From assembly GCA_029906195.1 (NCBI GenBank), contig JARWSJ010000001.1, forward strand, positions 744,001-808,000: a stretch of DNA of 64,000 bases, given 5' to 3'. The stretch comes from Chitinophagaceae bacterium 26-R-25 (GTDB lineage: Bacteria > Bacteroidota > Bacteroidia > Chitinophagales > Chitinophagaceae). This document shows, one piece after another, positions 6,094 to 63,062 of this stretch. The position numbers were made by a program, and so were the translations under genes. The notes under the pieces were generated by a model that made no database searches, had not been told where the DNA came from, and saw only the letters and a list, made by a program, of their open reading frames with translations. Each line of letters opens with the position of its first letter. The first letter of the stretch is position 1.

Positions 6094-6726
6094 ATGTATC
6101 CAACATTTACTACCGGCAATTTTGAGAAGATATGTAAGAAACTGGCGCTGATGGACGACGATCTGAAAATGGTGTTGGATACTTACGGTTATCCGCCCCT
6201 GTGGTCACGGCCAAATACTTTTGAAAGCCTTGTGCACATTATTCTTGAGCAGCAGGTTTCGCTTGCATCAGCACTGGCAGCACTCAATAAACTTAAGGAA
6301 AAAATAAAGGACATCACGCCTGAAGGTGTTTTGTTGTTGACTGACGAAGAGCTGAAGGAAAGTTACTTCAGCAGGCAAAAAACTGTTTACGTAAGACATT
6401 TGGCTGAGGCCATCCAAAACCGTAAACTCGATTTGCTTGCATTGGAAAAACTTTCGAGTGACGAAGTGCGTGAACAACTCACAAAGCTAAAAGGTGTGGG
6501 CGACTGGACGGTTGATATCTATCTCATCTTCATTCTGCATCGCGCAGATGTATTTCCCATGGGCGATCTGGCGGCTGTCAATGCCTTGAAGCAAATCAAA
6601 AAATTGCCGAAGGCCACTACCCGCGAGGAACTTGCAACAATAGTCGCCAACTGGCAGCCCTATAGAACGGTGGCTACGATGGTGTTGTGGCATTGGTATT
6701 TGTCGGTGAGGAGGAAGAGAAATTAG
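6094..6726 (+). CDS. DNA-3-methyladenine glycosylase II-like (AlkA/HhH-GPD)
   Basis: 210 aa, corresponding to the HhH-GPD catalytic core without the N-terminal TBP-like domain of E. coli AlkA. It should excise alkylated bases from DNA. The helix-hairpin-helix is LTKLKGVGDWTVDIYLIF at about residues 128-145, and the conserved aspartate follows in FPMGDLA (Asp158). LVHIILEQQVSLASA near residues 47-61 is the typical first helix of the family. No Cys cluster, so it is not an iron-sulfur EndoIII/MutY type. The final Asn codon and TAG stop fall inside the first unit of an AATTAGG repeat. Confidence 0.85.
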   Translation: MYPTFTTGNFEKICKKLALMDDDLKMVLDTYGYPPLWSRPNTFESLVHIILEQQVSLASALAALNKLKEKIKDITPEGVLLLTDEELKESYFSRQKTVYVRHLAEAIQNRKLDLLALEKLSSDEVREQLTKLKGVGDWTVDIYLIFILHRADVFPMGDLAAVNALKQIKKLPKATTREELATIVANWQPYRTVATMVLWHWYLSVRRKRN

Positions 6727-6920
6727 GAATTAGGAATTAAGAATTCCCTAAGTGTAAGATGCGTTTTTGAAAATGAATTTAGGAAATGGTAAAAGTAAAT
6801 TAACGGAGGCGTTTAGGCGACATTTGCAACTTTGCTTTTTTTTTCAGACCTTAAGCTCTTTACATTCTTCGCGGCATGCCGCGCTCTCAATTCTTAATTC
6901 TTAATTCCTAATTCTTAATT
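6721..6920. repeat. Inverted pair of GGAATTA tandem repeats
   Basis: Left arm 6721-6745 (AATTAGGAATTAGGAATTAA...) and right arm 6889-6920 (reverse complement family) enclose a unique spacer of about 143 bp. The left arm provides the stop codon of the glycosylase; the right arm ends 6 bp before the next ATG. The spacer itself contains GCGGCATGCCGC, a 12-bp palindrome, just before the right arm. Confidence 0.85.
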
Positions 6921-6926
6921 GATTTT

Positions 6927-7673
6927 ATGAACAGATTACAAAATAAAACCGCCGTGATTACAGGTGGTGGAAGCGGAATAGGCTTCGCTACTGCAAAAGA
7001 ATTTGTTGCGGAAGGTGCTAAAGTTGTTATTACGGGAAGAAATAAGGCAGAACTAGATAAAGCAGTAGAGGAGTTGGGTACTGGTGCATATGCGGTTGTG
7101 GCCGATACGTCTAAAGTGGATGCGATCAAGACGTTGCGACAGGAGGTAGAGAAAATATTTCCATCGCTGGATGTGCTTTTCATCAATGCTGGCATTGTAA
7201 AGTTCGGTAACATAGACGCTGTTACCGAGGAGGTTTTCGACGAGCAATTCAATACAAATATTAAGGGCGCCTATTTTACCCTACAGCAGTTGCTACCATT
7301 GTTTAAAAATGGTGGCTCCATTATTCTAAATACGTCCATCAATGCACATATCGGAAGGCCCGGCATTTCTGTTTATGGCGCCACGAAAGGAGCGTTGCTG
7401 ACACTCGCTAAAAACCTTTCCGCTGAACTGATGCCGCGAAAAATAAGGGTGAATGCGATTAGTTCCGGGCCGGTCAATACACCGCTTCACAGTGGGAAGG
7501 GGCTTACAGAGGAGCAGGCTTTACAATACCGCAAAGATCTTATTGCGCAAGTGCCAATAGGACGTTTGGGTGAACCCTCTGAAATTGCAAAAGCAATTGT
7601 GCTTTTTGCGTCAGACGAAGCTGCATATATTGTAGGTGCGGAGATTTTAGCTGATGGCGGAATGTCTTTGTAA
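6927..7673 (+). CDS. Short-chain dehydrogenase/reductase (SDR family)
   Basis: 248 aa classical SDR. The NAD(P)-binding TGGGSGIG is at residues 12-19, NAG near residue 88 (INAGIVKFG), and the catalytic triad is Ser137 (LNTSINA), Tyr150 and Lys154 (YGATK). The C-terminal EILADGGMSL is typical. Substrate cannot be inferred; no pathway neighbours. Arg following Gly in VITGRNKAELD suggests NADP preference, by general knowledge of the family. Confidence 0.9.
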   Translation: MNRLQNKTAVITGGGSGIGFATAKEFVAEGAKVVITGRNKAELDKAVEELGTGAYAVVADTSKVDAIKTLRQEVEKIFPSLDVLFINAGIVKFGNIDAVTEEVFDEQFNTNIKGAYFTLQQLLPLFKNGGSIILNTSINAHIGRPGISVYGATKGALLTLAKNLSAELMPRKIRVNAISSGPVNTPLHSGKGLTEEQALQYRKDLIAQVPIGRLGEPSEIAKAIVLFASDEAAYIVGAEILADGGMSL

Positions 7674-7674
7674 C

Positions 7675-7903
7675 AATGACTGAATAACTGAATAACTGAA
7701 AGAGATGCTTCGCATCTCAAAAGTCACCACTAAGCCACTAAGGACACGGAGCAACACTAAGGGATTTTCTTAGTGCAGCTCAGTGTTCTTAGTGGCTTAA
7801 TGGTAAAGAAATACTTGAATTATTAGCGAGGTCATGAATCAATAACTGAAGACTGCGCGCCAAACACTTTGTCAATAATTCAATGATTCAATGAGTCAAT
7901 GAA
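7675..7903. repeat. Nested inverted repeats: TAACTGAA family enclosing CACTAAGG family
   Basis: Outer arms 7676-7700 (TGACTGAATAACTGAATAAC) and 7872-7903 (TCAATAATTCAATGATTCAA). Inner element 7725-7804 has CACTAAGG-family arms at 7725-7747 and 7783-7804 and a core hairpin CACTAAG/CTTAGTG (7754-7775). Between them GAGATGCTTCGCATCTC (7702-7718) is a small perfect hairpin. This looks like one repeat element inserted within another. Confidence 0.8.
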
Positions 7904-7914
7904 TTTTTTTCTGC

Positions 7915-7922
7915 TACATTTG
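7915..7922 (+). promoter_or_regulatory. Putative -7 promoter box for the pentapeptide gene
   Basis: TACATTTG, exact TAnnTTTG match, 28 bases before the ATG and 12 bases after the right arm of the repeat. Confidence 0.45.
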
Positions 7923-7950
7923 AATCCGTTTTTCAGAAAAACAAACAGCA

Positions 7951-8526
7951 ATGCCCGACGTATATGTAGAAGACAAGAAGTTTGACAAGGTAGATTTTAC
8001 ACAGAAAAATCTTGAGCGCGGTGAGTATGAATACTGCGAATTCAACAACTGCGATTTTTCCAATACCAATCTTTCCTTCATGAAATTTGTTGAATGTACA
8101 TTCAACGGAAGCAACCTGAGTCTTGTAAAACTTGGTAAGACAGCCTTTCGCGATGTAGTGTTTAAAGAATGTAAAATGTTGGGTCTTCACTTTTACGATT
8201 GCGATGATTTTGTATTGTCGTTCAGTTTTGATAATTGCACGCTGAACCATTCTTCTTTTTTTGGAACAAAAATCAGGAACACAAAATTTAAGGGCTCACA
8301 ATTGCAGGAAGTGGATTTCACAGACTGCGACCTTACCTCAGCCACCTTCAGCGATTGCAATCTGGTTGACGCGAAGTTCGAAAACACAACCATTGAAAAA
8401 GCAGATTTCAGAACATCTATCAACTATTCCATCGACCTTGACAAGAACAAAATAAAGAAAGCAAAATTCGCTTATCCCGGAGTGATTGGGCTGTTGGATA
8501 AGTATGATATTGTGGTGGAGAAATAA
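7951..8526 (+). CDS. Pentapeptide-repeat protein
   Basis: 191 aa made almost entirely of A(D/N)LXX-type pentapeptides with many Cys and Phe at the central positions: CEFNNCDFSNTNLSFMKF, CTFNGSNLSLVKL, VDFTDCDLTSATFSDCNLVDAKFEN. This predicts a right-handed quadrilateral beta-helix. No signal peptide, so cytoplasmic. Some family members (Qnr, MfpA) protect gyrase and this one has the length of a Qnr, but nothing beyond the fold supports that role. The final Lys-stop comes from the first unit of a TAACTGAA repeat. Confidence 0.85.
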   Translation: MPDVYVEDKKFDKVDFTQKNLERGEYEYCEFNNCDFSNTNLSFMKFVECTFNGSNLSLVKLGKTAFRDVVFKECKMLGLHFYDCDDFVLSFSFDNCTLNHSSFFGTKIRNTKFKGSQLQEVDFTDCDLTSATFSDCNLVDAKFENTTIEKADFRTSINYSIDLDKNKIKKAKFAYPGVIGLLDKYDIVVEK

Positions 8527-8624
8527 CTGAATAACTGAATGACTGAATAATTGAGTGGTTGGAAGTCAAATACTCTGATGAACATAAACATTCAGTTATT
8601 CAGTTAATCAGTTATTCAGTTATT
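8523..8624. repeat. TAACTGAA inverted repeat between convergent genes
   Basis: Left arm 8523-8554, right arm 8590-8624, spacer 35 bp. The arms are 8-mer tandem repeats (TAACTGAA TAACTGAA TGACTGAA). The element fills the whole gap between two convergent genes and could act as a bidirectional terminator. The left arm supplies the stop codon of the upstream gene. Confidence 0.85.
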
Positions 8625-8625
8625 G

Positions 8626-9465: not shown

Positions 9466-9531
9466 AGTTTTATTTAACCCTCAACTTACCTTGTAATTCT
9501 GAACGGAAACTGAAGTTGAAACAGCAGATTT

Positions 9532-9709
9532 AACAATTAACAATTAGGAATTAACAATTAGGAATTAGGAATTAAGAATTAAGAATTCCCTAGGTTGGCA
9601 TTTCGCTATTGACTGGAATATCCTTGCTATATAAGGAGCAAATATCTTGGTTACTATGCTACCCAGAATAAATTCTTAATTCCTAATTCTTAATTCTTAA
9701 TTCTTAATT
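9532..9709. repeat. Inverted pair of GGAATTA tandem repeats
   Basis: Left arm 9532-9587 is unusually long (about eight units); right arm 9671-9709. Spacer about 83 bp starts with CCCTAGG, very like CCCTAAG in the same place of the 6721 element. The right arm supplies the TAA stop of the AhpD-like gene read on the minus strand. Confidence 0.85.
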
Positions 9710-15264: not shown

Positions 15265-15354
15265 AAGGAAAAAATGTTTGTGTTTTAAGGCCATGATACC
15301 GGGATTTACCCAGCCAAAAAACATAACAGTTTAGCCCGCAGAAAGGTTCGAGGT

Positions 15355-15491
15355 GAATTGAAAATTGAAAGTTGAAAATTGAAAATGCTTTCGATGCGAT
15401 ATTCTTACCATCGACCAATCAACTTGCCGGTAACAAATAAAGCAACTTACACGTAACCTACATTTTCAATTTTCAACTTTCAATTTTCAAC
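15355..15491. repeat. Inverted pair of TTGAAAA tandem repeats
   Basis: Left arm 15355-15387 (7-mers TTGAAAA/TTGAAAG), right arm 15461-15491, spacer about 73 bp beginning ATGCTTTCGATGC. The right arm meets the TAG stop of the next minus-strand gene. Confidence 0.85.
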
Positions 15492-15820: not shown

Positions 15821-15847
15821 GACGGTGAATGATTAGAAACCAAAAGT

Positions 15848-15964
15848 AATTTGAAAATTTGAAAATATGGAAATTTGAAAATGGATGGTGCTTCACCAAA
15901 GAAGTTTCGCGATCATCGAAAATGTCGCGCAGAACGAATTTTCAAATTTTCAAATTTTCAAATT
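15848..15964. repeat. Inverted pair of ATTTGAAA tandem repeats
   Basis: 8-mer family. Left arm 15848-15882, right arm 15936-15964, spacer about 53 bp. Lies just upstream of the start of the 109-aa gene and before the gapN promoter region. Confidence 0.85.
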
Positions 15965-16040
15965 GCCGCATTGATCAACGGCAACGATTGCGTAAATAGA
16001 ATAATCTACAAAAATAGGAGAGTAAAACGCGTTAGTCAAT

Positions 16041-16077
16041 CATAACCAGAATTTATGTGTCATAACTCGTGGTTATG
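16041..16077. promoter_or_regulatory. Operator-like inverted repeat upstream of gapN
   Basis: CATAACCA (16041-16048) and TGGTTATG (16070-16077) form an 8-bp perfect inverted repeat with 21-bp spacing, about 50 bp before the gapN start and just upstream of the putative promoter. Looks like a dimeric regulator site; the regulator is not in view. Confidence 0.4.
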
Positions 16078-16114
16078 GAGAAGAAAAAAAAGTTTTTTGA
16101 AATGGTTCGTTCCT

Positions 16115-16122
16115 TACCTTTA
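16115..16122 (+). promoter_or_regulatory. Putative -7 box, 5 bases before gapN ATG
   Basis: TACCTTTA (one mismatch to TAnnTTTG) with TTTTTTG 15 bases upstream at 16093-16099. If used, the mRNA would be leaderless. Confidence 0.4.
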
Positions 16123-16127
16123 GCGGT

Positions 16128-17837: not shown

Positions 17838-17885
17838 ATCATGGATATCCATAGCTAAGATGGTTGAAAAAATAGAAGGTGTTGC

Positions 17886-17974
17886 TTGTCATCCCGACGA
17901 AGGAGGGATCTGAGTTTAACACTGGCATGGATGTTTAATTAAACACCCAGATCCCTCCTTCGTCGGGATGACAA
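17886..17974. repeat. 27-bp perfect inverted repeat (TCATCCCGACGAAGGAGGGA family)
   Basis: Arms 17886-17912 and 17948-17974 are exact reverse complements of each other (TTGTCATCCCGACGAAGG... and CCTTCGTCGGGATGACAA), spacer 35 bp. A single copy of the right arm occurs at 12668-12694. Right after it, 18082-18110 carries ATTATTAATTA units that abut the next gene's promoter. Confidence 0.9.
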
Positions 17975-18495: not shown

Positions 18496-18511
18496 TTACT
18501 GCGAAATACTT

Positions 18512-18578
18512 ACCACTAAGGCACTAAGGACACTTAGCCTCACTAAGAGAAACTTAGTGTCCTTAGTGCCTTAGTGGT
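18512..18578. repeat. CACTAAGG hairpin between convergent genes
   Basis: Perfect 23-bp inverted repeat: 18512-18534 (ACCACTAAGGCACTAAGGAC...) and 18556-18578, loop 21 bp that itself holds CACTAAG/CTTAG. It fills the gap between two convergent genes and could end transcription both ways. Confidence 0.9.
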
Positions 18579-19956: not shown

Positions 19957-20036
19957 AAAACAAATTGTTTGTGGTTTGTGACGTTGACATGTTGCTGCGA
20001 TGCACAAAATTCGTGGAAGTGTAGCCTCGAATGTTT

Positions 20037-20132
20037 ACCACTAAGGCACTAAGTACACTAAGTTTCACTAGGGATTGTTTATCGTTTAGGCATTTCTTAG
20101 TGAAGCTTGGTGTACTGATTGTCTTAGTGGTT
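20037..20132. repeat. CACTAAGG inverted repeat
   Basis: Arms around 20037-20070 (ACCACTAAGGCACTAAGTAC) and 20095-20132 (CTTAGTG...GTCTTAGTGGT), degenerate compared with the copy at 18512. It lies in the 340-bp divergent gap; the rest of that gap (20133-20284) holds only AT-rich sequence. Confidence 0.75.
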
Positions 20133-20284
20133 TTGTGGTGTGACCACTGTACTTCTTACAAAGCACCGACGATTAACGTTTTATGAAATATACAATTTTT
20201 ACCGCAGCATGTTAAGTGGATGTTATTTTATAATTGATTGCCCTTTTATATTCGGCTGTTTAGTGAAATTTTAATTGAATCAAC

Positions 20285-26469: not shown

Positions 26470-26550
26470 GGCTCAACGCGGAATGCCTAACGCGTAACGC
26501 CTTTGTGTGCTGCACCTAAGCGTTAGGCGTTAGGCGTTGCGCGTTCAGCT
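26470..26550. repeat. GCGTTAG-family inverted repeat
   Basis: Left arm 26470-26500 (GCTCAACGCGGAATGCCTAA, CGCGTAACGCC), right arm 26517-26550 (TAAGCGTTAGGCGTTAGGCG), short spacer. Follows the efflux operon and may act as its terminator. Confidence 0.8.
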
Positions 26551-27258: not shown

Positions 27259-27373
27259 GCTGAATGCCTGAATAACTGAATAACAGAGTGGTTTATATTT
27301 TGATTTGATCTGCACATTTGAGCATTCAGTTATTCAATTATTCAGTTATTGAGTTATTCAGTCATTCGGTTAT
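27259..27373. repeat. TAACTGAA inverted repeat
   Basis: Left arm 27259-27287, right arm 27322-27373 (longer, about six units), spacer about 34 bp. Placed after a true terminator, so this copy is not needed to end transcription. Confidence 0.85.
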
Positions 27374-27442
27374 TATTTTGAAATACCGAAAAAGTTGCTT
27401 TTTTTACAGATTAATTGGCGTCACCCCCCTAACTTACATTTC

Positions 27443-27970
27443 ATGAGAAAACTTGTTGCCTGCATAGTCCTTTTTAGTTCTTTTGTTTTGGTAGGATATA
27501 GCCAGGTTAAGGACGAAGACACGCTGCTGAACATTATGCAACAGCAGGCCCTGAAAATGGCCCAGGCGTTGCTGAAAGAAGACTACAGGGCATTTACAAA
27601 ATATACCTATCCAAAACTTGTTCAGATTTCCGGGGGTTACAACGAAATGGCAACATTGATCGAAAAGGAAATCTCGGAGATGAAAAAACAAGGATTTAAT
27701 ATTGACGATATAAAAGTAGATTCACCTTCGCATATTTTCCGGAACGGAAAAGAATTGCAATGCACAGTGCTCCAACACTTATACATGACCGTTCAATCCA
27801 AAAAGGTTATGTCCACCTCATCTCTCATTGCGTTTTCATCTGACAACGGTTTTAACTGGACATTTCTGGATGCCAATAACAAAACAATCGAAACCATCAA
27901 AAAAATAGCTCCCAACTTAAGTTCGCAAATTGTTATACCGAAGCAGCGACCACCGGCGGAACTTAATTAA
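27443..27970 (+). CDS. Small exported protein, unknown
   Basis: 175 aa from ATG 27443, giving a signal peptide (MRKLVACIVLFSSFVLVGYS, then QVKDED). An extension to 27395 (MLFLQINWRHPP...) has no signal character. Mature part is mixed alpha/beta with ALKMAQALLKEDYRAFTKYTYP, LIEKEISEMKKQGFNIDDIK and a final FLDANNKTIETIKKIAP, resembling a small NTF2-like or DUF-type envelope protein. Single gene before the B12 riboswitch; no evident link with it. Confidence 0.65.
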   Translation: MRKLVACIVLFSSFVLVGYSQVKDEDTLLNIMQQQALKMAQALLKEDYRAFTKYTYPKLVQISGGYNEMATLIEKEISEMKKQGFNIDDIKVDSPSHIFRNGKELQCTVLQHLYMTVQSKKVMSTSSLIAFSSDNGFNWTFLDANNKTIETIKKIAPNLSSQIVIPKQRPPAELN

Positions 27971-28104
27971 TTGAAAATTGAAAGTTGAAAATTGAAAATG
28001 GTGAGGCACAATTTTGAATTAACTTTCGGCCCGGCGTTATGTCGCAAAAATGAAGATGTCATTTCCCTCAATCATTTTCAATTTTCAACTTTCAATTTTC
28101 AATT
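27966..28104. repeat. Inverted pair of TTGAAAA tandem repeats
   Basis: Left arm 27966-28000, right arm 28073-28104, spacer about 72 bp. The left arm overlaps the TAA stop of the preceding gene; the right arm ends 13 bp before the -7 box of the riboswitch promoter. Confidence 0.85.
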
Positions 28105-28117
28105 CCAAATATCCCAC

Positions 28118-28125
28118 TATATTTG
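28118..28125 (+). promoter_or_regulatory. Promoter -7 box for the B12 operon
   Basis: TATATTTG, exact TAnnTTTG match, just upstream of the cobalamin riboswitch. Confidence 0.55.
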
Positions 28126-28132
28126 CACCGCT

Positions 28133-28310
28133 ATTTGGTTCTTTTATTCACAACATGAATGAAGGATTAAAAGGGAATCCGGTGTAAATCCGGAGCTGTC
28201 CCGCAGCTGTAAGTTCTGTTACTGATGTCACTTCAAAGTCACTGTTACCAAGCCTTGTAACGGGAAGACCGACAAAGGGGAACGAGCCAGAAGACCTGCC
28301 TTTAGCATCA
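28133..28310 (+). ncRNA. Cobalamin riboswitch aptamer
   Basis: The conserved core is clear: GGGAATCCGGTG, AATCCGGAGC, TGTCCCGCAGCTGTAA (28171-28212) and the B12 box AGCCAGAAGACCTGCC at 28285-28300. Binding of adenosyl- or other cobalamin should switch off the downstream B12-uptake genes. About 215 nt separate it from the first start codon, leaving room for an expression platform. Confidence 0.9.
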
Positions 28311-28343
28311 TACTGATTCATTGCTTTCGGGGATAGAAGCGTG

Positions 28344-28376
28344 AATGATTAGCAAACAAAAATGCTTATTCATTAA
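28344..28376 (+). promoter_or_regulatory. Candidate riboswitch expression-platform hairpin
   Basis: AATGATTAGCA (28344-28354) can pair with TGCTTATTCATT (28363-28374), followed by a weak T-rich stretch. An overlapping alternative uses ATTCATTGCTT (28316-28326) with AAGCGTGAAT (28337-28346). The two cannot form at the same time, as expected for a switch, but the T-run is short. Confidence 0.35.
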
Positions 28377-28525
28377 GTTTTCCTTGCAGCTACATCTGTA
28401 ATTAACCATTGGGTTAGTTAAGTGTATTGCTATGTGTTTTGCGAAAAATGTTTTGCAGGATATGTAACAGTATAGATGTAAATCAGTGTGCCATCTTGTG
28501 TCAATTAAAATTTGAAACAAATAAA

Positions 28526-31917: not shown

Positions 31918-32120
31918 GAGTTAGGAATTAGGATGAATTGAAAGTTGAAAATTGAAAGTTGAAAATGGTAGGGGCGAATCGCATTCGCCCTGATCGCTCA
32001 ATTGAGTGGCGCATTGAGATTCGAGAACGACCAAAAGCCCCAGAGGGGCGACACGCTAGTAGCACAAGAAGAAAGCATTGCAATTAAATACCAGCCCCGT
32101 AGGGGCGACATGTTCGTAGA
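31898..32120. repeat. Cluster of three repeat families within the B12 operon
   Basis: GGAATTA units (31898-31933) begin inside btuB and supply its stop; then a TTGAAAA arm (31935-31967), a GTAGGGGCGAAT/ATTCGCCC palindrome (31968-31991), and GAGGGGCGACACG (32042-32054) with CCCCGTAGGGGCGACATG (32095-32112). None has its usual inverted partner here, so this looks like stacked remnants. The next ATG follows at 32136. Confidence 0.75.
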
Positions 32121-32135
32121 AAAAAATGAAAAAAA

Positions 32136-34426: not shown

Positions 34427-34667
34427 GAACTAGGAGTTAGGAATTAAGAATTAAGAATTAAGAATTAAGAATGCTTTCGACGCATCATTGTTTTTTTGAT
34501 TTAAACAGCAATACTGTTGAATACAACGGCTGTCAGGTGGCAAGTTGGTAGCTAGCACCCGAAGAACTCTTAATTCTTAATTCCTAATTCTTAATTCTGT
34601 TTATGGACAGGCCTTAAAGAATTCCTAATTCCTAACTCCTAATTCCTAATTTCTAATTCTTAATTAT
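34424..34667. repeat. GGAATTA repeats with double right arm
   Basis: Left arm 34424-34472; right arms 34568-34598 and 34620-34667. The left arm meets the TAG stop of the PKD lipoprotein. Spacer starts ATGCTTTCGACGC, like the spacer at 15384 of a different family. Confidence 0.85.
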
Positions 34668-34678
34668 CCCTGCTTTCT

Positions 34679-34686
34679 TATATTTG
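34679..34686 (+). promoter_or_regulatory. Putative -7 box for the punA-porin operon
   Basis: TATATTTG, exact match, 12 bases after a repeat arm and 74 bases before the punA ATG. Confidence 0.45.
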
Positions 34687-34760
34687 CTCCCGCTTATAGC
34701 AGGAGTTGATTAAAACAATTGCATAGCAACAGGTTACACGGAATTTTAAAAGCAAAATTT

Positions 34761-38854: not shown

Positions 38855-38858
38855 TATT

Positions 38859-38947
38859 TAGTCAAAATTTTAAAGTTAAAAGTCAAAAATCTGTAACGCG
38901 TGCTGCGCCAGAAGTTTTTGACTTTTAACTTTTTAATTTTGATTTTG
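38859..38947. repeat. Inverted repeat of AGTTAAAAGTCAAAA type
   Basis: Left arm 38859-38890 (TTAAAGTTAAAAGTCAAAAA), right arm 38914-38947 (TTTTTGACTTTTAACTTTTT), spacer about 23 bp. A further family with the same architecture as the others. Confidence 0.8.
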
Positions 38948-39007
38948 TACTAGTTTCCCGCTTTTTACGTTACCATTCTTTTGCGCCGTGGCGCTCAAAT
39001 CGATACC

Positions 39008-39489: not shown

Positions 39490-39575
39490 AATTGAAAATT
39501 GAAAGTTGAAAATTGAAAATTAGAAGGTCCAGAACCGCCTCACATTTTCAACTTTCAACTTTCAATTTTCAATTA
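39490..39575. repeat. TTGAAAA inverted repeat between convergent genes
   Basis: Left arm 39490-39521, right arm 39543-39575, spacer 21 bp. The right arm overlaps the TGA stop of ispH (ending ANN, stop). Fills the whole gap between two convergent genes. Confidence 0.9.
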
Positions 39576-40801: not shown

Positions 40802-40805
40802 CGTG

Positions 40806-40964
40806 GAAATTGAAAATTGAAAATTGAAAGTTGAAAATGGGGCTGGACTGGAACCCAGATAGTCATGATTGTGATGATTCTCATGATTTTTATTAATCAT
40901 TTCAAATCTTGATAATCATGAAAATCCGCGTCCTCATTTTCAACTTTCAATTTTCAATTTTCCA
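40806..40964. repeat. Nested inverted repeats: TTGAAAA family enclosing ATCATGAAA family
   Basis: Outer arms 40806-40839 and 40935-40964; inner 9-mer arms 40861-40890 (CATGATTGTGATGATTCTCA) and 40905-40933 (TTGATAATCATGAAAATC). Lies in a divergent promoter region, so it is not a terminator for either gene. Confidence 0.85.
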
Positions 40965-42264: not shown

Positions 42265-42443
42265 TAATTTGAAAAGAAAGAACGCAGATTTTCAGGATTG
42301 TCATGATTATAATGATTTGATATTTAAAATTTGATGACCGTAAATCTCAGATATCAAATTAAAAAATCTTCAAAAATCATGAAAATCATGAAAATCTGCG
42401 TTCCAGAATTTTCAAATTTCCACATTTTCAAATTTTCAAATTG
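42257..42443. repeat. Three-layer nested inverted repeat
   Basis: Outer ATTTGAAA arms 42257-42276 and 42406-42443; middle 9-mer arms 42280-42318 (AACGCAGATTTTCAGGATTG) and 42374-42403 (ATCATGAAAATCTGCGTTC); inner pair TTTGATATTTAAAATTTGAT (42317-42336) with AGATATCAAATT (42349-42360). The left outer arm supplies the TGA stop of the GH13 gene. Confidence 0.8.
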
Positions 42444-42449
42444 TCTCCC

Positions 42450-42457
42450 TATCTTCG
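42450..42457 (+). promoter_or_regulatory. Putative -7 box, 6 bases before FkbM ATG
   Basis: TATCTTCG, one mismatch to TAnnTTTG, 6 bases after the repeat arm and 6 bases before ATG. Confidence 0.35.
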
Positions 42458-42463
42458 GGCACT

Positions 42464-44361: not shown

Positions 44362-44375
44362 CGCTAAGATCACCT

Positions 44376-44530
44376 AATTTGAAAATTTGAAGATTTGAAA
44401 ATTTGAGAATGCTTTGAGCGCAGGGCTCATTACGACATCTTAGCAGATCGCACGGAAAGATGAATGTATTTGAATGGACAGATGCACATAGAGCATTTTT
44501 AAATTAGCACACTTTCAAATTTTCAAATTT
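44376..44530. repeat. Inverted pair of ATTTGAAA tandem repeats between convergent genes
   Basis: Left arm 44376-44409, right arm 44513-44530, spacer about 100 bp starting ATGCTTTGAGCGC. Confidence 0.8.
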
Positions 44531-44533
44531 GAT

Positions 44534-45494: not shown

Positions 45495-45713
45495 AATTTG
45501 AAAATTTGAAAATATGGGAATTTGAAAATGCTTTAGGTGCGTCCTTTTGAATTTGTTACTGCTCATCGAGTATTGGGGAGTTATTTTGAAAACGGAAAAG
45601 CTGCACCTAAACCATTTTCAAATTCTCATATTTTCAAATTTTCAAATTAATCAGTGTCTCGAACTCGCAGTACACCCCTAATTCCCAATTCCTGATTTCT
45701 AATTCCTGATTCC
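45495..45713. repeat. ATTTGAAA inverted repeat followed by a lone GGAATTA right arm
   Basis: Arms 45495-45530 and 45613-45650; the symmetry continues into the spacer as TTTAGGTGC/GCACCTAAA. A right-type GGAATTA arm at 45679-45713 stands alone before the cvfB promoter. Confidence 0.8.
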
Positions 45714-46565: not shown

Positions 46566-46780
46566 AAATTGAAAGTTGAAAATGAGGTTTTATGTGAAGA
46601 TCGATCGTTGTTTCACAAGCAAGCCGCTCGTGCGACAAGAACGCAGTCACTCAGAAAGCATTTTCAACTTTCAACTTTCAATTTTCAATTACTAAATGGC
46701 ACAATTTTTTGATTCAAAATTGATTCGTGGAAATGGCACACACAGCCATTTTCAACTTTGAACTTTCAATTTTCAATTAA
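46553..46780. repeat. TTGAAAA repeats with two right arms
   Basis: Left arm 46553-46583, first right arm 46659-46691, second right arm 46747-46780. The first spacer ends with AGAAAGC next to the arm, the reverse complement of the GCTTTC seen after left arms elsewhere. Confidence 0.85.
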
Positions 46781-46783
46781 CGA

Positions 46784-48526
46784 ATGAGTCTGGCCAAATA
46801 CAAACAGAAAAGATCCTTTAATCAAACGCCGGAACCGAAGGGTGGAAAGGCGAAAAATGGTGAATTGCGTTTTGTAATTCAAAAGCATGACGCATCCCAT
46901 TTGCATTATGATTTCAGGTTGGAGATGGACGGTGTTTTGAAAAGTTGGGCCGTACCGAAGGGGCCATCAACCGACCCTGAAGTGAAGCGACTGGCCATGA
47001 TGGTGGAGGATCACCCGTATGATTATCGCAGTTTTGAAGGCATTATACCCAAAGGAAATTACGGCGCAGGAACCGTGATCATTTGGGATGAAGGAACATA
47101 TTTGTCAGATGAGGATGTTGCAGCCGACAAAAGATCCCAGGAGAAAAGCTTACTCAAACAACTGAACTCAGGAACGATTAAATTCACTTTAAAAGGAAAA
47201 AAACTAAAGGGCAGTTTTGCATTGGTAAAAATGCACGGCAAAGGGGAGAATACGTGGTTATTGATAAAACATAAAGACAAATACGCATCTACCGACGATA
47301 TTACTGAAAAAGATAAATCGGTTGTCTCCAATAAAACGATAGAGAAGATAGCCGCTACCAGCGAAAATATCTGGCACTCGAACAGGACGGCTGCAGCTAA
47401 AAAAACGGCGACAAAAAAAACAGTGGCGAAGAAGTCTGCACCAACAAAAACAGCCGCTACAAAATCTGCTAAAAAAAATGCTGAAGAAGATTTAGAAGTG
47501 ATTGGCGATGCTTCGGTAAATGAATTGCTTGAAAAAGGAAAAAAGCAGGCATTTCCACATGATCTTAAACCGATGTTGGCAACCAGGGTAGAAGAGGCTT
47601 TTGATAACAAAGATTGGTTGTATGAAATAAAGTGGGATGGCTATCGGGCACTCGCTTACATAAATAAAGGAAAAGTGGAATTGCGATCACGCAACAATCT
47701 TTCATTTACACAAAAATTTCCCATAATTGCCGAAGCACTGAGGGAAGAATGGAAAGGCGATGCCGTGATAGATGGTGAGATTGTGGCTTTGAATGATGAA
47801 GGCTTGCCCGACTTTCAAAACCTGCAAAGCTTTGTAAAGAATGGCAGAACAGCAATGCTTGTATTCTACGTGTTTGATATTTTGTTGTACGATGGAAAAA
47901 CGCTTGCGTCGTTACCTCTTATCGAACGCAAGACCATTCTGCAAAATCTTGTTCCGAAAAGCGATGTGATTATTTTCAGTGATCACATCATTGGCGAAGG
48001 GAAAGCGTTTTTCAAACTTGCTTTAAAGAAAGGCCTGGAAGGCGTGATGGCAAAGGATATGCAAAGCGAGTATTACGTCGATCACAGAAGTAAAAGTTGG
48101 CTCAAGATCAAGAGCACACAAAAACTCGAAGCGATCATTTGTGGCTTTACAGAGCCGCGCAAGAGCCGAAAGTATTTTGGTGCAATTATCCTGGGAAAAT
48201 ACAATGGTAACAAACTGGAATATATTGGCCACAGTGGTTCCGGGTTTACGGAAAAAACATTGAAGGACCTCCACCAAAAACTGCAGCCACTTGTAATAAA
48301 GAAATCACCGTTTAACACTGTTCCAAAAACAAACATGCCAGTGACATGGGTAAAGCCACAACTCGTGTGTGAAGTGACTTACACCGAATGGACGCAAGAC
48401 CGTGTGTTGCGACATCCAATTTTTCTTGGGCTAAGAGAAGACAAAAAAGCCGCGACAGAAAAGAACGAAAAGATAGTGAAGGCGCCCAAGAAAAGCACGA
48501 GGAAAAAAAATAGTCTGGCGAATTGA
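46784..48526 (+). CDS. ligD: LigD-like ATP-dependent DNA ligase with phosphoesterase domain, no polymerase
   Basis: 580 aa. Residues about 30-150 are the 3'-phosphoesterase domain (FVIQKHDASHLHYDFRLEMD, WAVPKGPS, GIIPKGNYGAGTV). A Lys/Ala linker (about 205-235, TAAAKKTATKKTVAKKSAPT) follows. Residues about 260-560 are the ATP-dependent ligase with adenylated Lys283 in YEIKWDGYRA, DGEIVALND, GVMAKDM and WLKIKS. The primase-polymerase domain of full LigD (over 800 aa) is missing. Likely repairs double-strand breaks by non-homologous end joining with Ku, but no ku gene is in view. Confidence 0.85.
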   Translation: MSLAKYKQKRSFNQTPEPKGGKAKNGELRFVIQKHDASHLHYDFRLEMDGVLKSWAVPKGPSTDPEVKRLAMMVEDHPYDYRSFEGIIPKGNYGAGTVIIWDEGTYLSDEDVAADKRSQEKSLLKQLNSGTIKFTLKGKKLKGSFALVKMHGKGENTWLLIKHKDKYASTDDITEKDKSVVSNKTIEKIAATSENIWHSNRTAAAKKTATKKTVAKKSAPTKTAATKSAKKNAEEDLEVIGDASVNELLEKGKKQAFPHDLKPMLATRVEEAFDNKDWLYEIKWDGYRALAYINKGKVELRSRNNLSFTQKFPIIAEALREEWKGDAVIDGEIVALNDEGLPDFQNLQSFVKNGRTAMLVFYVFDILLYDGKTLASLPLIERKTILQNLVPKSDVIIFSDHIIGEGKAFFKLALKKGLEGVMAKDMQSEYYVDHRSKSWLKIKSTQKLEAIICGFTEPRKSRKYFGAIILGKYNGNKLEYIGHSGSGFTEKTLKDLHQKLQPLVIKKSPFNTVPKTNMPVTWVKPQLVCEVTYTEWTQDRVLRHPIFLGLREDKKAATEKNEKIVKAPKKSTRKKNSLAN

Positions 48527-50343: not shown

Positions 50344-50490
50344 GAACACAGATTTTCATGATTGTCATGATTTTTATGATTTTTTGATTTGAAATTTGCT
50401 ATTTGAAAATGCTGAGTTTCAACCAACATATGGTTTAGAATGTAAAATTTCAAATCCTTCAAATCTTGATAATCATGAAAATCTGCGTTC
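50344..50490. repeat. Nested inverted repeat of the ATCATGAAA 9-mer family
   Basis: Outer arms 50344-50390 (ACACAGATTTTCATGATTGT...) and 50463-50490 (GATAATCATGAAAATCTGCG); inner pair GATTTGAAATTTGCTATTTG (50386-50405) and AAATTTCAAATCCTTCAAAT (50445-50464). Lies between convergent genes. Confidence 0.8.
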
Positions 50491-51112: not shown

Positions 51113-51145
51113 GGTAGTTGATTATGGCACAATTTAAGAATAATA

Positions 51146-51235
51146 GCTTAACGCTAAACGCCTAATGCCAAACCCAGGGCTACCCGCGTTAAGCGTTAAG
51201 CGTTAGGCGTTAGGCGTTTACCGTTAAGCATTAGT
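51146..51235. repeat. GCGTTAG-family inverted repeat
   Basis: Left arm 51146-51175 (GCTTAACGCTAAACGCCTAA), right arm 51186-51235 (GCGTTAAGCGTTAAGCGTTA...), spacer 10 bp. The right arm has seven or eight 7-bp units, the longest of this family, and reaches the stop of the TonB receptor. Confidence 0.85.
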
Positions 51236-54481: not shown

Positions 54482-54623
54482 GGAAGTCCCGAAATTATTT
54501 GCACTTAATCCAACGCTGTTAACCTTCGATAACATAAATGACCGATTCCATAACAGTTAGTTTGCAACTGCTTCTACATTTACAGTTCTGAAAACGTAAT
54601 TGAAATGCTTATTTTTATTATTG

Positions 54624-54699
54624 CCCGTGCATGGTGCGGAATGGCGAAAGCCGCCGAACGCCCAATTACGTGCGTCAGACACCTAAACACGGGTTTTTA
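54624..54699 (+). ncRNA. Candidate structured RNA or attenuator
   Basis: CCCGTG (54624-54629) pairs with CACGGG (54688-54693), followed by TTTTTAC. Inside, GGTG (54633-54636) can pair with CACC (54680-54683), and GGCGAAAGCC (54643-54652) forms a GNRA-type hairpin followed by GCCGAACGCCC. The closing stem ends in a U-run, as in a terminator, 21 bp before the next ATG. No known riboswitch class was recognised. Confidence 0.4.
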
Positions 54700-54720
54700 C
54701 TTTATCTGAAAAACGTAATT

Positions 54721-54930
54721 ATGGTAAAATTTTTCGACAACAAACTCGTCATCGAAATCACAACCCCTTCGCCAAATGAAACCTTACATGATCTTCAGCA
54801 CAGTCTTTTGCATTTGCTTATGTTGAAAGACTCAAAACAAGTTACAGACGGTTTCGCCGAATGGAACGCCGTTAACCTACTGAGCGAATTGCTATTGCCG
54901 TTAAAAGCTTATCCGAAAGTGTTGCACTAG
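54721..54930 (+). CDS. Small conserved-looking protein, unknown
   Basis: 69 aa from ATG 54721 (MVKFFDNKLVIEITTPSPNE). Soluble, with one beta-rich N-terminus and helices (TLHDLQHSLLHLLMLKD, NLLSELLLPLKAYPK). A longer frame from 54631 would run through the structured RNA and is rejected. No family recognised. The leader RNA just upstream may control it. Confidence 0.5.
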   Translation: MVKFFDNKLVIEITTPSPNETLHDLQHSLLHLLMLKDSKQVTDGFAEWNAVNLLSELLLPLKAYPKVLH

Positions 54931-54961
54931 AAAAAGGCGCTCTATTTCAACTCTCTCATTT

Positions 54962-55039
54962 ACCACTAAGGCACTAAGGGCACTAAGCCTCACTTAGAGA
55001 ACCCTTAGTGTAACTTAGTGGCCTTAGTGTCTTAGTGGT
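54962..55039. repeat. CACTAAGG inverted repeat
   Basis: ACCACTAAGGCACTAAGGGC (from 54962) and GGCCTTAGTGTCTTAGTGGT (to 55039), about 30 bp arms with a central part that also pairs. It sits before the convergent terminator. Confidence 0.85.
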
Positions 55040-55077
55040 TAGTGTTGGAGACTATAAATTATAAACACCGGCAAAAC

Positions 55078-58285: not shown

Positions 58286-58858
58286 ATGGCGAATAGATTT
58301 TATAAATGGCAGCTCTTATTGTGTTTATTTGTTATTTGTTCTGTTGCGGGCAACGATTTGTTTGCTGCCGGCCACAAGAACAAAGATTTACCCGTAAGCC
58401 CCGGAAAGCCAACGGCCAACCATCCTTTTTATATAAGTGTCACAGAAATTAACCACAACGCAAAGGACAAAACACTTGAAATCAGTTGTAAGATGTTCCT
58501 GGATGATTTCGAAAAAACATTGCGTGATGTGACCAAAACAGAAGTAGATCTTAACAATGTAAAAGACAAGGCGAAGATAGATAAGCTGATCAGCAATTAC
58601 CTGAACAGTCACCTGCAGCTTAAAGTGGATGGCAAACCCGTGTCATTGCAATTTATAGGTTTTGAGAAAGAGAGCGAAGCGGCGTGGTGCTATTTGCAGG
58701 TAAACAATGTGCCTTCTGTAAAGCAACTGGAAGTAAAAAATACGTTGCTGTTTGAAGAATTCGATTCCCAAATCAGCATTATGCACGTAATCGTGAACGG
58801 TACGAGGAAAAGCACAAGGTTGAATAAACCGGAGAGTGTTGCGAAGTTTGATTTTTAA
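58286..58858 (+). CDS. DUF6702 family exported protein
   Basis: 190 aa, signal peptide LLLCLFVICSVAGNDLFA. Mature part starts HPFYISVTEINHNAKDKTLE and continues with KMFLDDFEKTLRD, VDGKPVSLQFIGFEKESEAAW and FDSQISIMHVIVNGTRKS, which fits the DUF6702 pattern. Family members lie next to HupE-like and M1 peptidase genes in many Bacteroidota, suggesting a shared function at the envelope, not yet known. Confidence 0.75.
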   Translation: MANRFYKWQLLLCLFVICSVAGNDLFAAGHKNKDLPVSPGKPTANHPFYISVTEINHNAKDKTLEISCKMFLDDFEKTLRDVTKTEVDLNNVKDKAKIDKLISNYLNSHLQLKVDGKPVSLQFIGFEKESEAAWCYLQVNNVPSVKQLEVKNTLLFEEFDSQISIMHVIVNGTRKSTRLNKPESVAKFDF

Positions 58859-58956
58859 TTATTGAATCATTGAATAATTGAATTATTGAAAGGCACAAAG
58901 TTTGTTTATCTTACTTGCAGAATGCTGTTACTCAATAATTCAATGATTCATAATTA
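58857..58956. repeat. Inverted ATTGAATCATTGAATAA repeat
   Basis: Left arm 58857-58890 (TTGAATCATTGAATAATTGA), right arm 58931-58956 (CTCAATAATTCAATGATTCA), spacer about 40 bp. Closest to the TAACTGAA family. Confidence 0.8.
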
Positions 58957-59792: not shown

Positions 59793-59794
59793 TG

Positions 59795-59945
59795 GAAAAT
59801 TGAAAGTTGAAAGTTGAAAAGGAACGCAGATCATCAAGATTTTCATGATTCACAAGATTGAGATACAAAATCATATCAAATCATGACAATCATGAAAATC
59901 TGCGTTCTTCTTCATTTTCAATTTTCAACTTTCAATTTTCAATTA
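59795..59945. repeat. Nested inverted repeat: TTGAAAA family enclosing ATCATGAAA family
   Basis: Outer arms 59795-59820 and 59913-59945; inner 9-mer arms from GAACGCAGATCATCAAGATT (59822) to ATCATGAAAATCTGCGTTC (59889-59907). Fills the gap between convergent genes. Confidence 0.85.
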
Positions 59946-59955
59946 TTTGCACCAT

Positions 59956-60606: not shown

Positions 60607-60684
60607 GTAGGGGCGAATCGTATTCGCCCTCGTCGCACATTGGTGACTCGCAAATTATCGATCAGGGCGAATGCGATTCGCCCG
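60607..60684. repeat. GTAGGGGCGAAT inverted repeat
   Basis: GTAGGGGCGAATCG (60607-60620) and CGATTCGCCC (60674-60683), each with its own small palindrome. Spacer ends ATTATCGATCAGGG, nearly the same as in the element at 62982. Confidence 0.85.
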
Positions 60685-60705
60685 TACGTGCCCCAAGATA
60701 AATAT

Positions 60706-61392: not shown

Positions 61393-61432
61393 ATCACAAA
61401 ACAGAGGGTTGGTTGATCAAAACGTGTCTCTG

Positions 61433-61440
61433 CAAATTTA
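61433..61440 (-). promoter_or_regulatory. Putative -7 box of the 2H gene
   Basis: Minus strand reads TAAATTTG, exact TAnnTTTG match, 40 bases before the ATG. Confidence 0.35.
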
Positions 61441-61486
61441 GTCAAGTTTCAAAGGACTTGTTGCTGCTTGTGGAAGCCTCATAAAA

Positions 61487-61513
61487 AAAGGCCCCGCTTT
61501 TAGCGGGTCCTTT
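61487..61513 (-). terminator. Rho-independent terminator
   Basis: On the minus strand AAAGGACCCGCT pairs with AGCGGGGCCTTT (one mismatch, loop 3), followed by TTTT. It lies right after the stop of the Asn/Gly/Arg-rich secreted protein. Confidence 0.85.
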
Positions 61514-61516
61514 GTC

Positions 61517-62125
61517 TTAGAACCTTCTGTCATCACGTTTATCGTTACCTCTTCGACCATTGTCGTGCCCCCAGTTGCCGTTGCCTCTCTGGTCGTTATC
61601 ACGATCCCATTTTCCATTGCCCCTGCGGCCATTGTCATGCCAGTTGTCGTTGTCTCTGCCGCCTCTGTTGTAATCTGCGTTTCCATAAACCTCTCTGCGA
61701 ACAGGGTATGGATTATTGTATTTGCCATAATCCGCTCTTCCTGGGTAATCGCGCCACATTGGCTGAGGTTGATTCCAGTTTCTGTAGCCCGCATACCTGC
61801 TGCGATAATATGCATTGTTCATGTAAGGTCTTGGTTCATTCACCACCACCTTGTAAGAGTGGTAAAGGTCAAAGTCTCTGCAAGCATAAGGAAGACTGCT
61901 ATTGAACACCCATTGATTGTTTTGGAAATAAACAAATTGTTGGGTTGGTACGTAGTAGTACATATCCACATCTGGCAGGTAGTAATAATCTACGTGGTCA
62001 TAACCGGAAGGTCCCCACATAGGTTGGTTGCCGACGTTTATGTTAGCGCTTATAGTTACCTGTGCGTTTGCTTTAAATATGATGGCGGTACTGATTAAAA
62101 TGGCTGTAAGTAGAATCTTTTTCAT
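61517..62125 (-). CDS. Secreted Asn/Gly/Arg-rich protein, unknown
   Basis: 202 aa with signal peptide ILLTAILISTAIIFKANAQ. Residues 25-95 are Tyr/Trp-rich (GPSGYDHVDYYYLPDVDMYYYV), and the C-terminal 70 residues consist of imperfect repeats of RRGNGKWDRDNDQRGNGNWG type. The N-terminal module (MYYYVPTQQFVYFQNNQWVF) occurs in Bacteroidota envelope proteins of unknown role. Basic, likely binds an anionic polymer, but this is a guess. Confidence 0.7.
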   Translation of the reverse strand: MKKILLTAILISTAIIFKANAQVTISANINVGNQPMWGPSGYDHVDYYYLPDVDMYYYVPTQQFVYFQNNQWVFNSSLPYACRDFDLYHSYKVVVNEPRPYMNNAYYRSRYAGYRNWNQPQPMWRDYPGRADYGKYNNPYPVRREVYGNADYNRGGRDNDNWHDNGRRGNGKWDRDNDQRGNGNWGHDNGRRGNDKRDDRRF

Positions 62126-62215
62126 AATGGTAAATTTTCTATTAATAAGATTCCATATTGCTTTGCAGGTTTAAAAAACAGGGTAGTGGTAATTGTTAAA
62201 CTATAGCCAAAGAGA

Positions 62216-62460
62216 AATAACTGAATGACTGAGTAACTGAGTAACTGAATAACTGACGGTGCATAATTGACATTCATCATATACTCAATAATTCAATGAT
62301 TCAATAATTCAAATATTCAGTTATTCAGATTACTTTGCAGCCTTGGCAGGAATTTGCGAGTGATGGATGAAAATGCGAAAAGACTTTATGTAAGGAATTT
62401 TCGAATTTTCCCCGCCTGAATGACCAGTCGGGCAGGATATTTTCAAATTTTCAAATTGAA
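62216..62460. repeat. TAACTGAA inverted repeat and ATTTGAAA right arm before kdsC
   Basis: Arms 62216-62256 and 62282-62327 of the 8-mer TAACTGAA family, spacer 25 bp. A further right-type arm of the ATTTGAAA family ends at 62460, directly before the kdsC ATG; 62417-62439 (CCGCCTGAATGACCAGTCGGGC) lies between. No promoter box was recognised in this 338-bp gap. Confidence 0.8.
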
Positions 62461-62463
62461 CAA

Positions 62464-62985
62464 ATGAGCTTACTAAACAGGTTTTCGAAGATCACAACAT
62501 TTGTGCTGGATGTAGATGGTGTTTTAACGGATGGAAGTATTCTGCTGCTTGAAGACGGGCAAATGGCAAGAAGCATGAACACAAAGGATGGTTATGCCAT
62601 GCAACTTGCTATAAAAAAAGGATACAAAATTGTGATCATTTCCGGTGGCGCCTCAGAAGCGGTGACCATCCGCCTGACCAAGCTCGGTATAAAGGATGTT
62701 TTTCTTAAAGTGGAAAACAAGATTGAAATTTTGCATGATTACATGAATCGCAACGGTATCAAAAAAGAAGAGATTTTATACATGGGAGATGATATTCCAG
62801 ACTATGAGGTAATGAAAGAGTCCGGAATAGCATGTGCTCCTTCAGATGCTGTGGGGGAGATAAAACATATTGCCGCATATATATCGCCGTTAGCGGGCGG
62901 TCGCGGTTGTGTTCGTGATGTAATTGAAAAGGTGATGAAATTGCGTGGTGATTGGCATATTGACGTATCATTACAAAGCCGGTAG
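62464..62985 (+). CDS. kdsC: KDO-8-phosphate phosphatase
   Basis: 173 aa HAD-type C0 phosphatase without cap domain, forming tetramers. Nucleophile Asp16 and Asp18 in LDVDGVLTDG, IISGGASEAV motif II, Lys in FLKVENK, MGDDIPDYEVM motif IV. It releases KDO from KDO-8-P for lipid A/LPS core synthesis. Followed by a UbiA-type prenyltransferase on the same strand. The TAG stop is the start of a GTAGGGGCGAAT repeat. Confidence 0.9.
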   Translation: MSLLNRFSKITTFVLDVDGVLTDGSILLLEDGQMARSMNTKDGYAMQLAIKKGYKIVIISGGASEAVTIRLTKLGIKDVFLKVENKIEILHDYMNRNGIKKEEILYMGDDIPDYEVMKESGIACAPSDAVGEIKHIAAYISPLAGGRGCVRDVIEKVMKLRGDWHIDVSLQSR

Positions 62986-63062
62986 GGGCGAATCGCGTTC
63001 GCGCCTGCTTCACAAACGGCGAGCCGCCAATTATCGACCAGGGGAATGCAATTCGCCCCTAC
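62982..63062. repeat. GTAGGGGCGAAT inverted repeat between kdsC and ubiA-like gene
   Basis: GGTAGGGGCGAATCGCGTTC (62981-63000) and GCAATTCGCCCCTAC (63048-63062). Spacer contains ATTATCGACCAGGG, shared with the 60607 element. Overlaps the stop codon of kdsC. Confidence 0.85.

Follow-up and report, generated by a model that had tools for sequence, protein, structure and literature searches.

Intergenic foldback-type elements with inverted arms of tandem 7–9-mers at gene 3′ ends in Pinibacter (Bacteroidota)

The intergenic regions of a 64,000-bp stretch of DNA from Chitinophagaceae bacterium 26-R-25 (the window; contig 1, positions 744001–808000, of a 6.51-Mb genome in 6 contigs) contain elements composed of two inverted arms of about 30 bp, each a tandem array of 7–9-mers, around a loop, here also called spacer. 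The source bacterium belongs to the genus Pinibacter; the nearest named relatives of its gene at window positions 46784–48526 are Pinibacter aurantiacus (91% identity) and P. soli (87%), both Chitinophagaceae, Bacteroidota. We observed a common polarity of the arms, a preferred placement at gene ends, stable sites, inversion of the loop at a few loci, some copied loops and some replacement of one unit family by another. The reading towards which we lean, at little better than an even chance, is that these are intergenic foldback-type hairpins resembling repetitive extragenic palindromic (REP) sequences and their hairpin-forming doublets (REPINs), which would be dispersed as whole hairpins with loops diverging afterwards, kept at gene 3′ ends, and subject to exchange between arms and to turnover at their sites.

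Architecture and placement of the elements

Arrays of period 7, 8 and 9 occur 32, 15 and 4 times in the window (51 in total), compared with 0 in 3 mononucleotide shuffles and 1, 0, 0, 0 and 0 in 5 third-order Markov sequences. This supports the repeat system reported by a first-pass annotation of the window, as the arrays are not rare and their arms are more symmetric than AT-rich drift would make them. Across the 6.5-Mb genome, three tandem copies of GGAATTA (up to 3 mismatches) matched 1,266 times and the reversed pattern 24 times; for three copies of TAACTGAA (up to 2 mismatches) the numbers were 719 and 0. The main sample of the own genome comprised 2.016 Mb, or 31% of the genome, with some counts taken from subsets of 1.824 Mb or 1.02 Mb. 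Of its 720 arrays, 647 belong to 11 unit families, and a strict detector scored 166 inverted pairs, 161 of which remained as unique elements after removal of double counts; the corresponding numbers for 1.824 Mb were 635 arrays, 567 assigned to 11 unit families, and 145 inverted same-family pairs. Within the window the strict detector found 15 inverted pairs, and about ten further elements, which are degenerate, nested or of the CACTAAGG type, were recognized by eye. The count of over thirty elements given by the first-pass annotation fails even with these added, while its statement that the system fills most intergenic gaps holds in the sense that 26 of the 40 gaps of at least 30 bp between 6721 and 63062 carry at least one family array.

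The inverted two-arm architecture was confirmed by adjacent same-family array pairs, which were inward in 132 cases, outward in none and direct in 14 (1.824 Mb); as each family received its inward label only after inspection of the pairs in the 1.02-Mb subset, this polarity test is one of consistency within families. Among the 96 inverted pairs of that subset, no family occurs in both orders. That the two arms always belong to the same family was too strong a claim: the 1.02-Mb subset has 164 pairs of neighbouring arrays, of which 106 are same-family, 96 of these being inverted, and the remainder are mixed, nested, unassigned or direct. The idea of one architecture realized by many families is supported by the common polarity, the placement at stop codons, similar arm lengths and the exchange of families within the same gap. 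A sequence core shared across families was considered as well and rejected, in agreement with the earlier annotation. The motif CTT[TC]..G[TC]G was found just inside 7 of 60 ATTTGAAA arms (0.2 expected) and 10 of 159 GGAATTA arms (0.4 expected); with at most 2 arms in each of the 9 other families, it amounts to a trace.

Placement was counted relative to genes called by a simple open reading frame (ORF) rule. Arms facing a 3′ end (n = 307) lie at a median of 2 bp from the stop codon, with 71% of them within 10 bp (15% under a uniform null), while for arms facing a 5′ end (n = 266) the median is 45 bp and 23% lie within 10 bp (null: 12%). Arms were present in 83 of 211 convergent, 231 of 791 tandem and 44 of 187 divergent gaps, and only 33 of 647 arrays were located inside ORFs. 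Several arms overlap the stop codon itself, for example at 6726 and 31917. Read in the inward direction, 11 of 12 units contain a stop codon, compared with 6 of 12 in the outward direction and 50% of random units.

RNA folding of 60 of the 161 unique elements yielded a mean z of -8.9 relative to mononucleotide shuffles, with 91% of the left-arm bases predicted to pair with the right arm; for the spacers alone (53 of the 60 elements) z was -1.4. Folding of four window stretches as single-stranded DNA gave z values of -5.8, -8.8, -2.2 and -2.2, the third stretch cutting through its element. No element matched Rfam at gathering thresholds, the only matches in the window being a cobalamin riboswitch and a c4-2 RNA. 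A TTGAAAA element directly precedes the riboswitch (28118–28317, 106.1 bits), and two ORFs lie downstream of it, one at 28448 and one, for a TonB-dependent receptor, at 29863. The c4-2 RNA (54620–54699, 52.2 bits) overlaps a short predicted ORF (54631–54930) and has CACTAAGG-type sequence on both sides.

Arms and loops within and between Pinibacter genomes

For comparison, two further Pinibacter genomes, G001 and G002, were used, and the window was extended to own contig position 1,040,000, covering 72 gaps against G001 and 42 against G002; one mostly non-syntenic G002 stretch served for family counts only. Elements are present in all three genomes, with 321, 300 and 160 family arrays per Mb in the three samples. 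In the comparison with G001, one or both genomes have an array in 42 gaps; the family is shared in 30 of these, differs in 7, and 5 gaps are one-sided. Against G002 the 27 such gaps divide into 19, 4 and 4. Presence at orthologous gaps is thus mostly shared. Nine of the different-family comparisons look real on alignment, and they fall on seven gaps: 15325–15490, 15821–16127, 27971–28447, 46566–46783, 51113–51230, 59793–59955 and one just beyond the window. Three of these (27971, 46566 and 59793, in G001) are shifts from TTGAAAA to TTGAGAG-type units, which could represent drift within one unit lineage; TTGAGAG arrays number 36 per Mb in the G001 sample and 9 per Mb in the own sample, and none is listed for G002. 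At two sites, 44362–44533 (G002) and own-block position 94240 (G001), the other species carries, as judged by eye, a palindrome outside this set of families, and at two more (42265–42463 and 59793–59955) a TTTCATGAT element takes the spacer position between the arms of another family. An apparent gain is located at 38855–39007: in place of the window's element (38865–38946), the two relatives have about 55 bp of other sequence in common. At this one gain examined there was no sign of a target duplication, as the first-pass annotation had stated in general, and no clean empty site was found among the other one-sided gaps inspected.

The orientation of the spacer was compared in 20 orthologous same-family cases (30 shuffles each), of which 7 were inverted, two of them weakly, 7 had the same orientation and 6 could not be aligned. 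Array-masked BLAST, a separate test, showed inversion at 5 loci (6 gap pairs out of the 70 in which both species have arrays) compared with 2 of 78 other pairs, and both of the latter gaps (43247 and 54180) carry GTGAATC and CACTAAGG inverted repeats. In ten hand-picked element pairs (9 of the 14 alignable spacer comparisons and one with a short spacer), identity between species was 94.0% for the arms (530/564), 80.8% for the spacers (516/639) and 81.1% for the flanks (588/725). The detector's preference for matching units accounts for part of the arm identity. The arms also differ by indels, with 126 gap positions in 564 aligned.

Within the own genome, orders of unit variants recur at unrelated loci. 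In TTGAAAA arms the orders AAGA (28) and AAGG (16) together make up 44 of 120 arms; GGAATTA arms show several recurring orders, the commonest non-empty one being AG-GG-AG (15 of 159 arms), and TAACTGAA arms could not be read by this test. That the two arms of an element keep their symmetry, as previously proposed, is true of three of seven families (96 elements), in which own arms are more alike than the arms of other elements of the family (permutation: GGAATTA 0/2,000; TAACTGAA p = 0.02; ATTTGAAA p = 0.03, uncorrected); the other four families, TTGAAAA among them (p = 0.81), showed no such excess. Some elements carry mirrored private variants in both arms, for example at gap 9463 in G001 and G002.

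A comparison of the spacers of 155 unique elements revealed 32 pairs with a match, 15 of which, involving 22 spacers, extend over 60% or more of the shorter one; 3 shuffles gave 0. Several of these 15 paralogous pairs are due to nested TTTCATGAT or TGTCATCCCG palindromes. Two other pairs lie close together, and in the rest, which come from distant loci and belong to TAACTGAA, TTGTTAG, ATTTGAAA and TTGAAAA elements, the loops are 74–91% alike. Spacers drawn at random from the same family align at 48.3%, compared with 44.3% when one side is shuffled, and the six largest spacer clusters, holding 25 of 39 clustered spacers, consist mostly of split arrays or nested palindromes. Two TTGAAAA spacers (L094, L095) share a AAAAAGCAGCAC..GTGCTGCTTTTT hairpin with T-runs that resembles an intrinsic terminator.

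The elements of the window are listed in Table 1. Besides these, a GGGCGAAT palindrome follows a TTGAAAA arm at 31965–32130, and a TTGTCATCCCGACGAAGGAGGGATCT palindrome follows a GGAATTA arm at 17850–17967, with similar ones inside GGAATTA spacers at loci L116 and L117. The sequence ATTCGCCC occurs within 45 bp inside the arms in 15 of 120 TTGAAAA cases compared with 1 of 159 GGAATTA cases, a skew by which this nesting looks family-specific. In the G001 gap matching window positions 34427–34760 (contig 5, locus L102), about 1.4 kb of extra sequence separates two GGAATTA right arms.

Table 1. Repeat elements of the window in window coordinates; no strand is assigned to any feature.
Element	Position	Remarks
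GGAATTA element	6718–6920	Arms 6718–6745 and 6885–6920; spacer 139
TAACTGAA element	7675–7902	Arms 7675–7700 and 7872–7902; CACTAAGG-type hairpin within, 7736–7794
TAACTGAA element	8522–8624	Spacer inverted relative to G001
GGAATTA element	9530–9709	Spacer inverted relative to G001 and G002
TTGAAAA element	15356–15490	G002 gap holds TAACTGAA element
ATTTGAAA element	15848–15964	Gap of relatives: one GGAATTA-type array
CACTAAGG-type hairpin	18510–18575	
CACTAAGG-type hairpin	20035–20140	Dispersed in G001
CTAACGC element	26472–26545	Degenerate left arm
TAACTGAA element	27260–27374	Spacer inverted between species
TTGAAAA element	27969–28104	G001: TTGAGAG-type units
GGAATTA element	34424–34665	Two right arms
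Mixed TTGAAAA/AAAAGTC element	38865–38946	Replaces ~55 bp conserved in both relatives
TTGAAAA element	39490–39574	Between convergent genes
TTGAAAA element	40804–40962	TTTCATGAT element within
TTTCATGAT element in ATTTGAAA element	42287–42445	TTTCATGAT element 42287–42396 replaces spacer of ATTTGAAA element
ATTTGAAA element	44376–44530	G002: unrelated palindrome at site
ATTTGAAA element	45495–45648	Spacer paralogue at sampled locus L124 (74%)
TTGAAAA element	46555–46690	Extra right arm 46750–46778; G001: TTGAGAG units
TTTCATGAT element	50351–50483	ATTTGAAA-like sequence within
CTAACGC element	51140–51218	G002: TAACTGAA
CACTAAGG-type hairpin	54960–55045	
TAACTGAA-type element	58854–58935	Degenerate right arm
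TTGAAAA element	59795–59944	Spacer = TTTCATGAT element; G001: TTGAGAG
TAACTGAA element	62216–62328	Strand label of right array ambiguous in detector

Relation to transposases and known repeat systems

The elements share the anatomy of REPINs, namely inverted conserved ends, a less conserved loop and hairpin potential, and also their placement, mainly beside 3′ ends in convergent and tandem gaps. REPs have been described to lie within 20 bp of 3′ ends, with their termini supplying stop codons, in the accessible part of PMC3733652, and the portions available of this source and of PMC3116915 depict REP doublets and REPINs as inverted doublets in intergenic regions, able to form hairpins and with lower conservation in the loop, present in several families per genome, located mostly at 3′ ends in convergent or tandem gaps and often providing the stop codon. 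The Pinibacter elements differ from REPINs in their arms of tandem 7–9-mers without GTAG or CGTC tags, the lack of a linked REP-associated tyrosine transposase (RAYT), the many unit families, and in that sister species show inverted loops and exchanged families. Neither tag was found in any of 19 unit consensus sequences, read in tandem on either strand.

A search of the own genome for Y1_Tnp returned 3 matches, of which two overlap and are interrupted by stops and the third is an open frame. The latter encodes a RAYT (NF047646, 106.8 bits, cut-off 80), the only intact one in the genome. It is flanked by TTGCC..GGCAA and AAGGCT..AGCCTT palindromes and not by arms; a TTTCATGAT element lies about 80 bp past its 3′ end, and a TTTCATGAT match is found near the RAYT in G001 and G002, too. 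RAYT homologues exist in 67 of 117 genomes of Chitinophagaceae, and of 30 RAYT loci from this family one, from a Pinibacter, has a family array at the standard threshold, while 3 have other 7–9-mer arrays. G001 and G002 each have a second RAYT homologue, open in both, which may or may not correspond to a stop-broken Y1 transposase gene at about 1,715,400 of own contig 1 (L221, L223). Because of these bordering palindromes and the missing REP tags in the arms, membership in a RAYT–REPIN system fails, REPINs mobilized by the resident RAYT were rejected as a class assignment, and no link between this gene and the elements was found. The RAYT-like transposase that the first-pass annotation had suggested to look for is present, in an intact copy. 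Its view that the definitions of neither REPs and bacterial interspersed mosaic elements nor miniature inverted-repeat transposable elements (MITEs) fit well stands with regard to the REP tag and a cognate RAYT, and not with regard to placement, stop codons, inverted doublets and loop, all of which are REP/REPIN-like. As for an autonomous partner, 2.0 Mb contained 7 inward same-family arm pairs 300–3,500 bp apart, and in the four for which ORFs were listed no transposase was recognized by eye, no family search having been run; two of these spans hold full-length ORFs resembling, by eye, ordinary cellular proteins, one holds short ORFs only and one none.

With inverted tandem-repeat arms around a variable centre, the elements also show foldback anatomy. 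Eukaryotic foldback transposons have such arms and centres as well and are much larger. Intron-borne degenerate heptanucleotide repeats likewise base-pair into a hairpin, comprise two repeat classes and differ in copy number, but they occupy a single locus within an intron, whereas the Pinibacter elements are dispersed and intergenic. The BrickBuilt MITE of Porphyromonas gingivalis, another intergenic element of Bacteroidota with tandem repeats inside inverted repeats, is described in the available portion of PMC4596501 as one 23-nt tandem array between small inverted ends, in 19 copies and without tandem arms. TAACTGA repeats of Beggiatoaceae, Cyanobacteria and some Bacteroidetes are 7-mers in intergenic tandem sets with indels in 7-nt steps between strains; in the text accessible of PMC4679880 they are direct (one indirect), near start codons and of one unit, whereas Pinibacter has inverted pairs at stop codons and at least 11 units, an arrangement that does not fit direct repeats a few nucleotides ahead of start codons. 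Small inversions in chloroplast DNA, likely facilitated by hairpins, are typically 4–50 bp long and, as far as the accessible text of PMC12371153 goes, are not presented as a dispersed element family.

In a sample of 296 Bacteroidota genomes that did not include G001 and G002, just one genome besides the own contained three copies of TAACTGAA (7 matches). Family arrays are present in 16 of 80 named loci of 5–22 kb, from Pinibacter (2), Deminuibacter, Sediminibacterium, Niastella (2), Longitalea, Hufsiella, Mucilaginibacter, a Chitinophagaceae metagenome-assembled genome (MAG) and Dyadobacter (6). Of two loci, L029 and L077, the one from a Dyadobacter MAG has other period-8 arrays and the one from a Mucilaginibacter an inverted period-8 pair, AAGTCCGA/CTTTCGGA, so that the architecture may extend beyond these families. 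We met no description of inverted 7–9-mer tandem arms in Bacteroidota in the openly accessible literature, a scope that did not take in older work on cyanobacterial short tandemly repeated repetitive sequences. New in the Pinibacter elements are the median of 2 bp between arm and stop codon, spacer inversion between sister species at about five loci, family exchange at seven gaps and defined unit orders.

Origin and persistence of the elements

If the favoured reading is correct, a hairpin would be dispersed as a whole, arms together with loop, and its loop would diverge later. Template switching or recombination between the inverted arms in the hairpin could flip the loop, and the stretch from a stop codon to the next promoter may constitute a tolerant slot in which new elements would replace old ones. 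That some elements have loops copied along with their arms supports dispersal of whole hairpins with subsequent divergence. In addition, non-orthologous arms of the same family are 86–93% identical (5 families, 30 draws each; AAAAGTC rests on two elements only), part of this identity being built in because the detector demands matching units. This last qualification weighs against the favoured reading, and so do several other observations. In the 31% of the genome sampled, 133 of the 155 spacers had no paralogue, although further partners must have escaped a sample of this size; with matches for the other 22, the earlier description of the spacers as unique does not hold for all of them. The closest paralogous pairs include two (L097, L207) whose members are less than 1 kb from each other and which may be local duplications, and two of the 11 different-family comparisons (gaps 19 and 33) are labelling artefacts. 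No dispersal enzyme was found by the Y1_Tnp search of the genome or, by eye, among the ORFs of the four long-range pairs, and a terminator scan of 20 kb gave 20 sites, with 19.3 expected. Own-arm similarity exceeded orthologous-arm similarity in 12 of 21 comparisons, was lower in 7 and tied in 2, and concerted arm change is not general; general concerted evolution of the arms, which had been expected, is only weakly supported by these numbers and was discarded.

It is a real, if improbable, possibility that the elements are selected 3′-end RNA structures, acting in transcript ending, as mRNA stabilizers or as translational stops, with interchangeable families. The share of 3′-facing arms close to a stop codon, the inward stop codon in nearly all units and the stability of sites whose content turns over all argue for it. 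However, terminator-like sites are not in excess in the stretch scanned, the elements lack Rfam matches, arms are missing from 71–76% of the tandem and divergent gaps, and a like placement of REPs in the accessible part of PMC3733652 may reflect tolerance only. The elements after stop codons may thus be 3′-end RNA structures or may be merely tolerated. An origin in place appears unlikely to us: a short hairpin would grow by replication slippage in steps of 7–9-mers, and hairpin-templated correction would copy the result to the other arm. The arm indels, the mirrored private variants at gap 9463 and the TTGAAAA-to-TTGAGAG shift in both arms at three gaps are in line with such a process, but 11 unit families hold 647 of 720 arrays, unit orders recur at unrelated loci and some loops have been copied together with arms. 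The same copying of loops has reduced a further explanation from an improbable to a decidedly unlikely one, namely that the position of an element is set by the neighbouring genes while arms and loop are periodically rewritten from a repertoire of unit families. In this explanation a process would act on the hairpin itself, write mirrored arms and sometimes flip the loop, in place of the insertion of a defined unit at new sites.

We are very doubtful that the elements are true REPINs with unusual REP ends which the resident RAYT mobilizes. The intact RAYT, the REPIN-like anatomy and placement, and the TTTCATGAT sequences near this gene in all three genomes speak for such a relation, whereas the palindromes bordering the gene in place of arms, the single family array among 30 RAYT loci and the absence of both tags from all units speak against it. 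Least credible, and in our view hardly to be expected, is a role as sites for a post-transcriptional regulator, as proposed for the TAACTGA repeats of Beggiatoaceae in the part of PMC4679880 available. The heptamer TAACTGA is identical and also occurs in intergenic tandem sets; there, however, direct repeats lie just upstream of start codons, and here inverted pairs of many families lie at stop codons.

In Pinibacter, the heptamer TAACTGA, described earlier mainly as a direct repeat (PMC4679880, as far as its accessible text goes), appears in inverted pairs at stop codons. For the origin, spread and persistence of the short dispersed hairpins that are common at bacterial gene ends, this genus offers a dense, multi-family set. 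As the three Pinibacter species are close enough for loop inversion and replacement to be seen at single gaps, arm exchange and family turnover become measurable.

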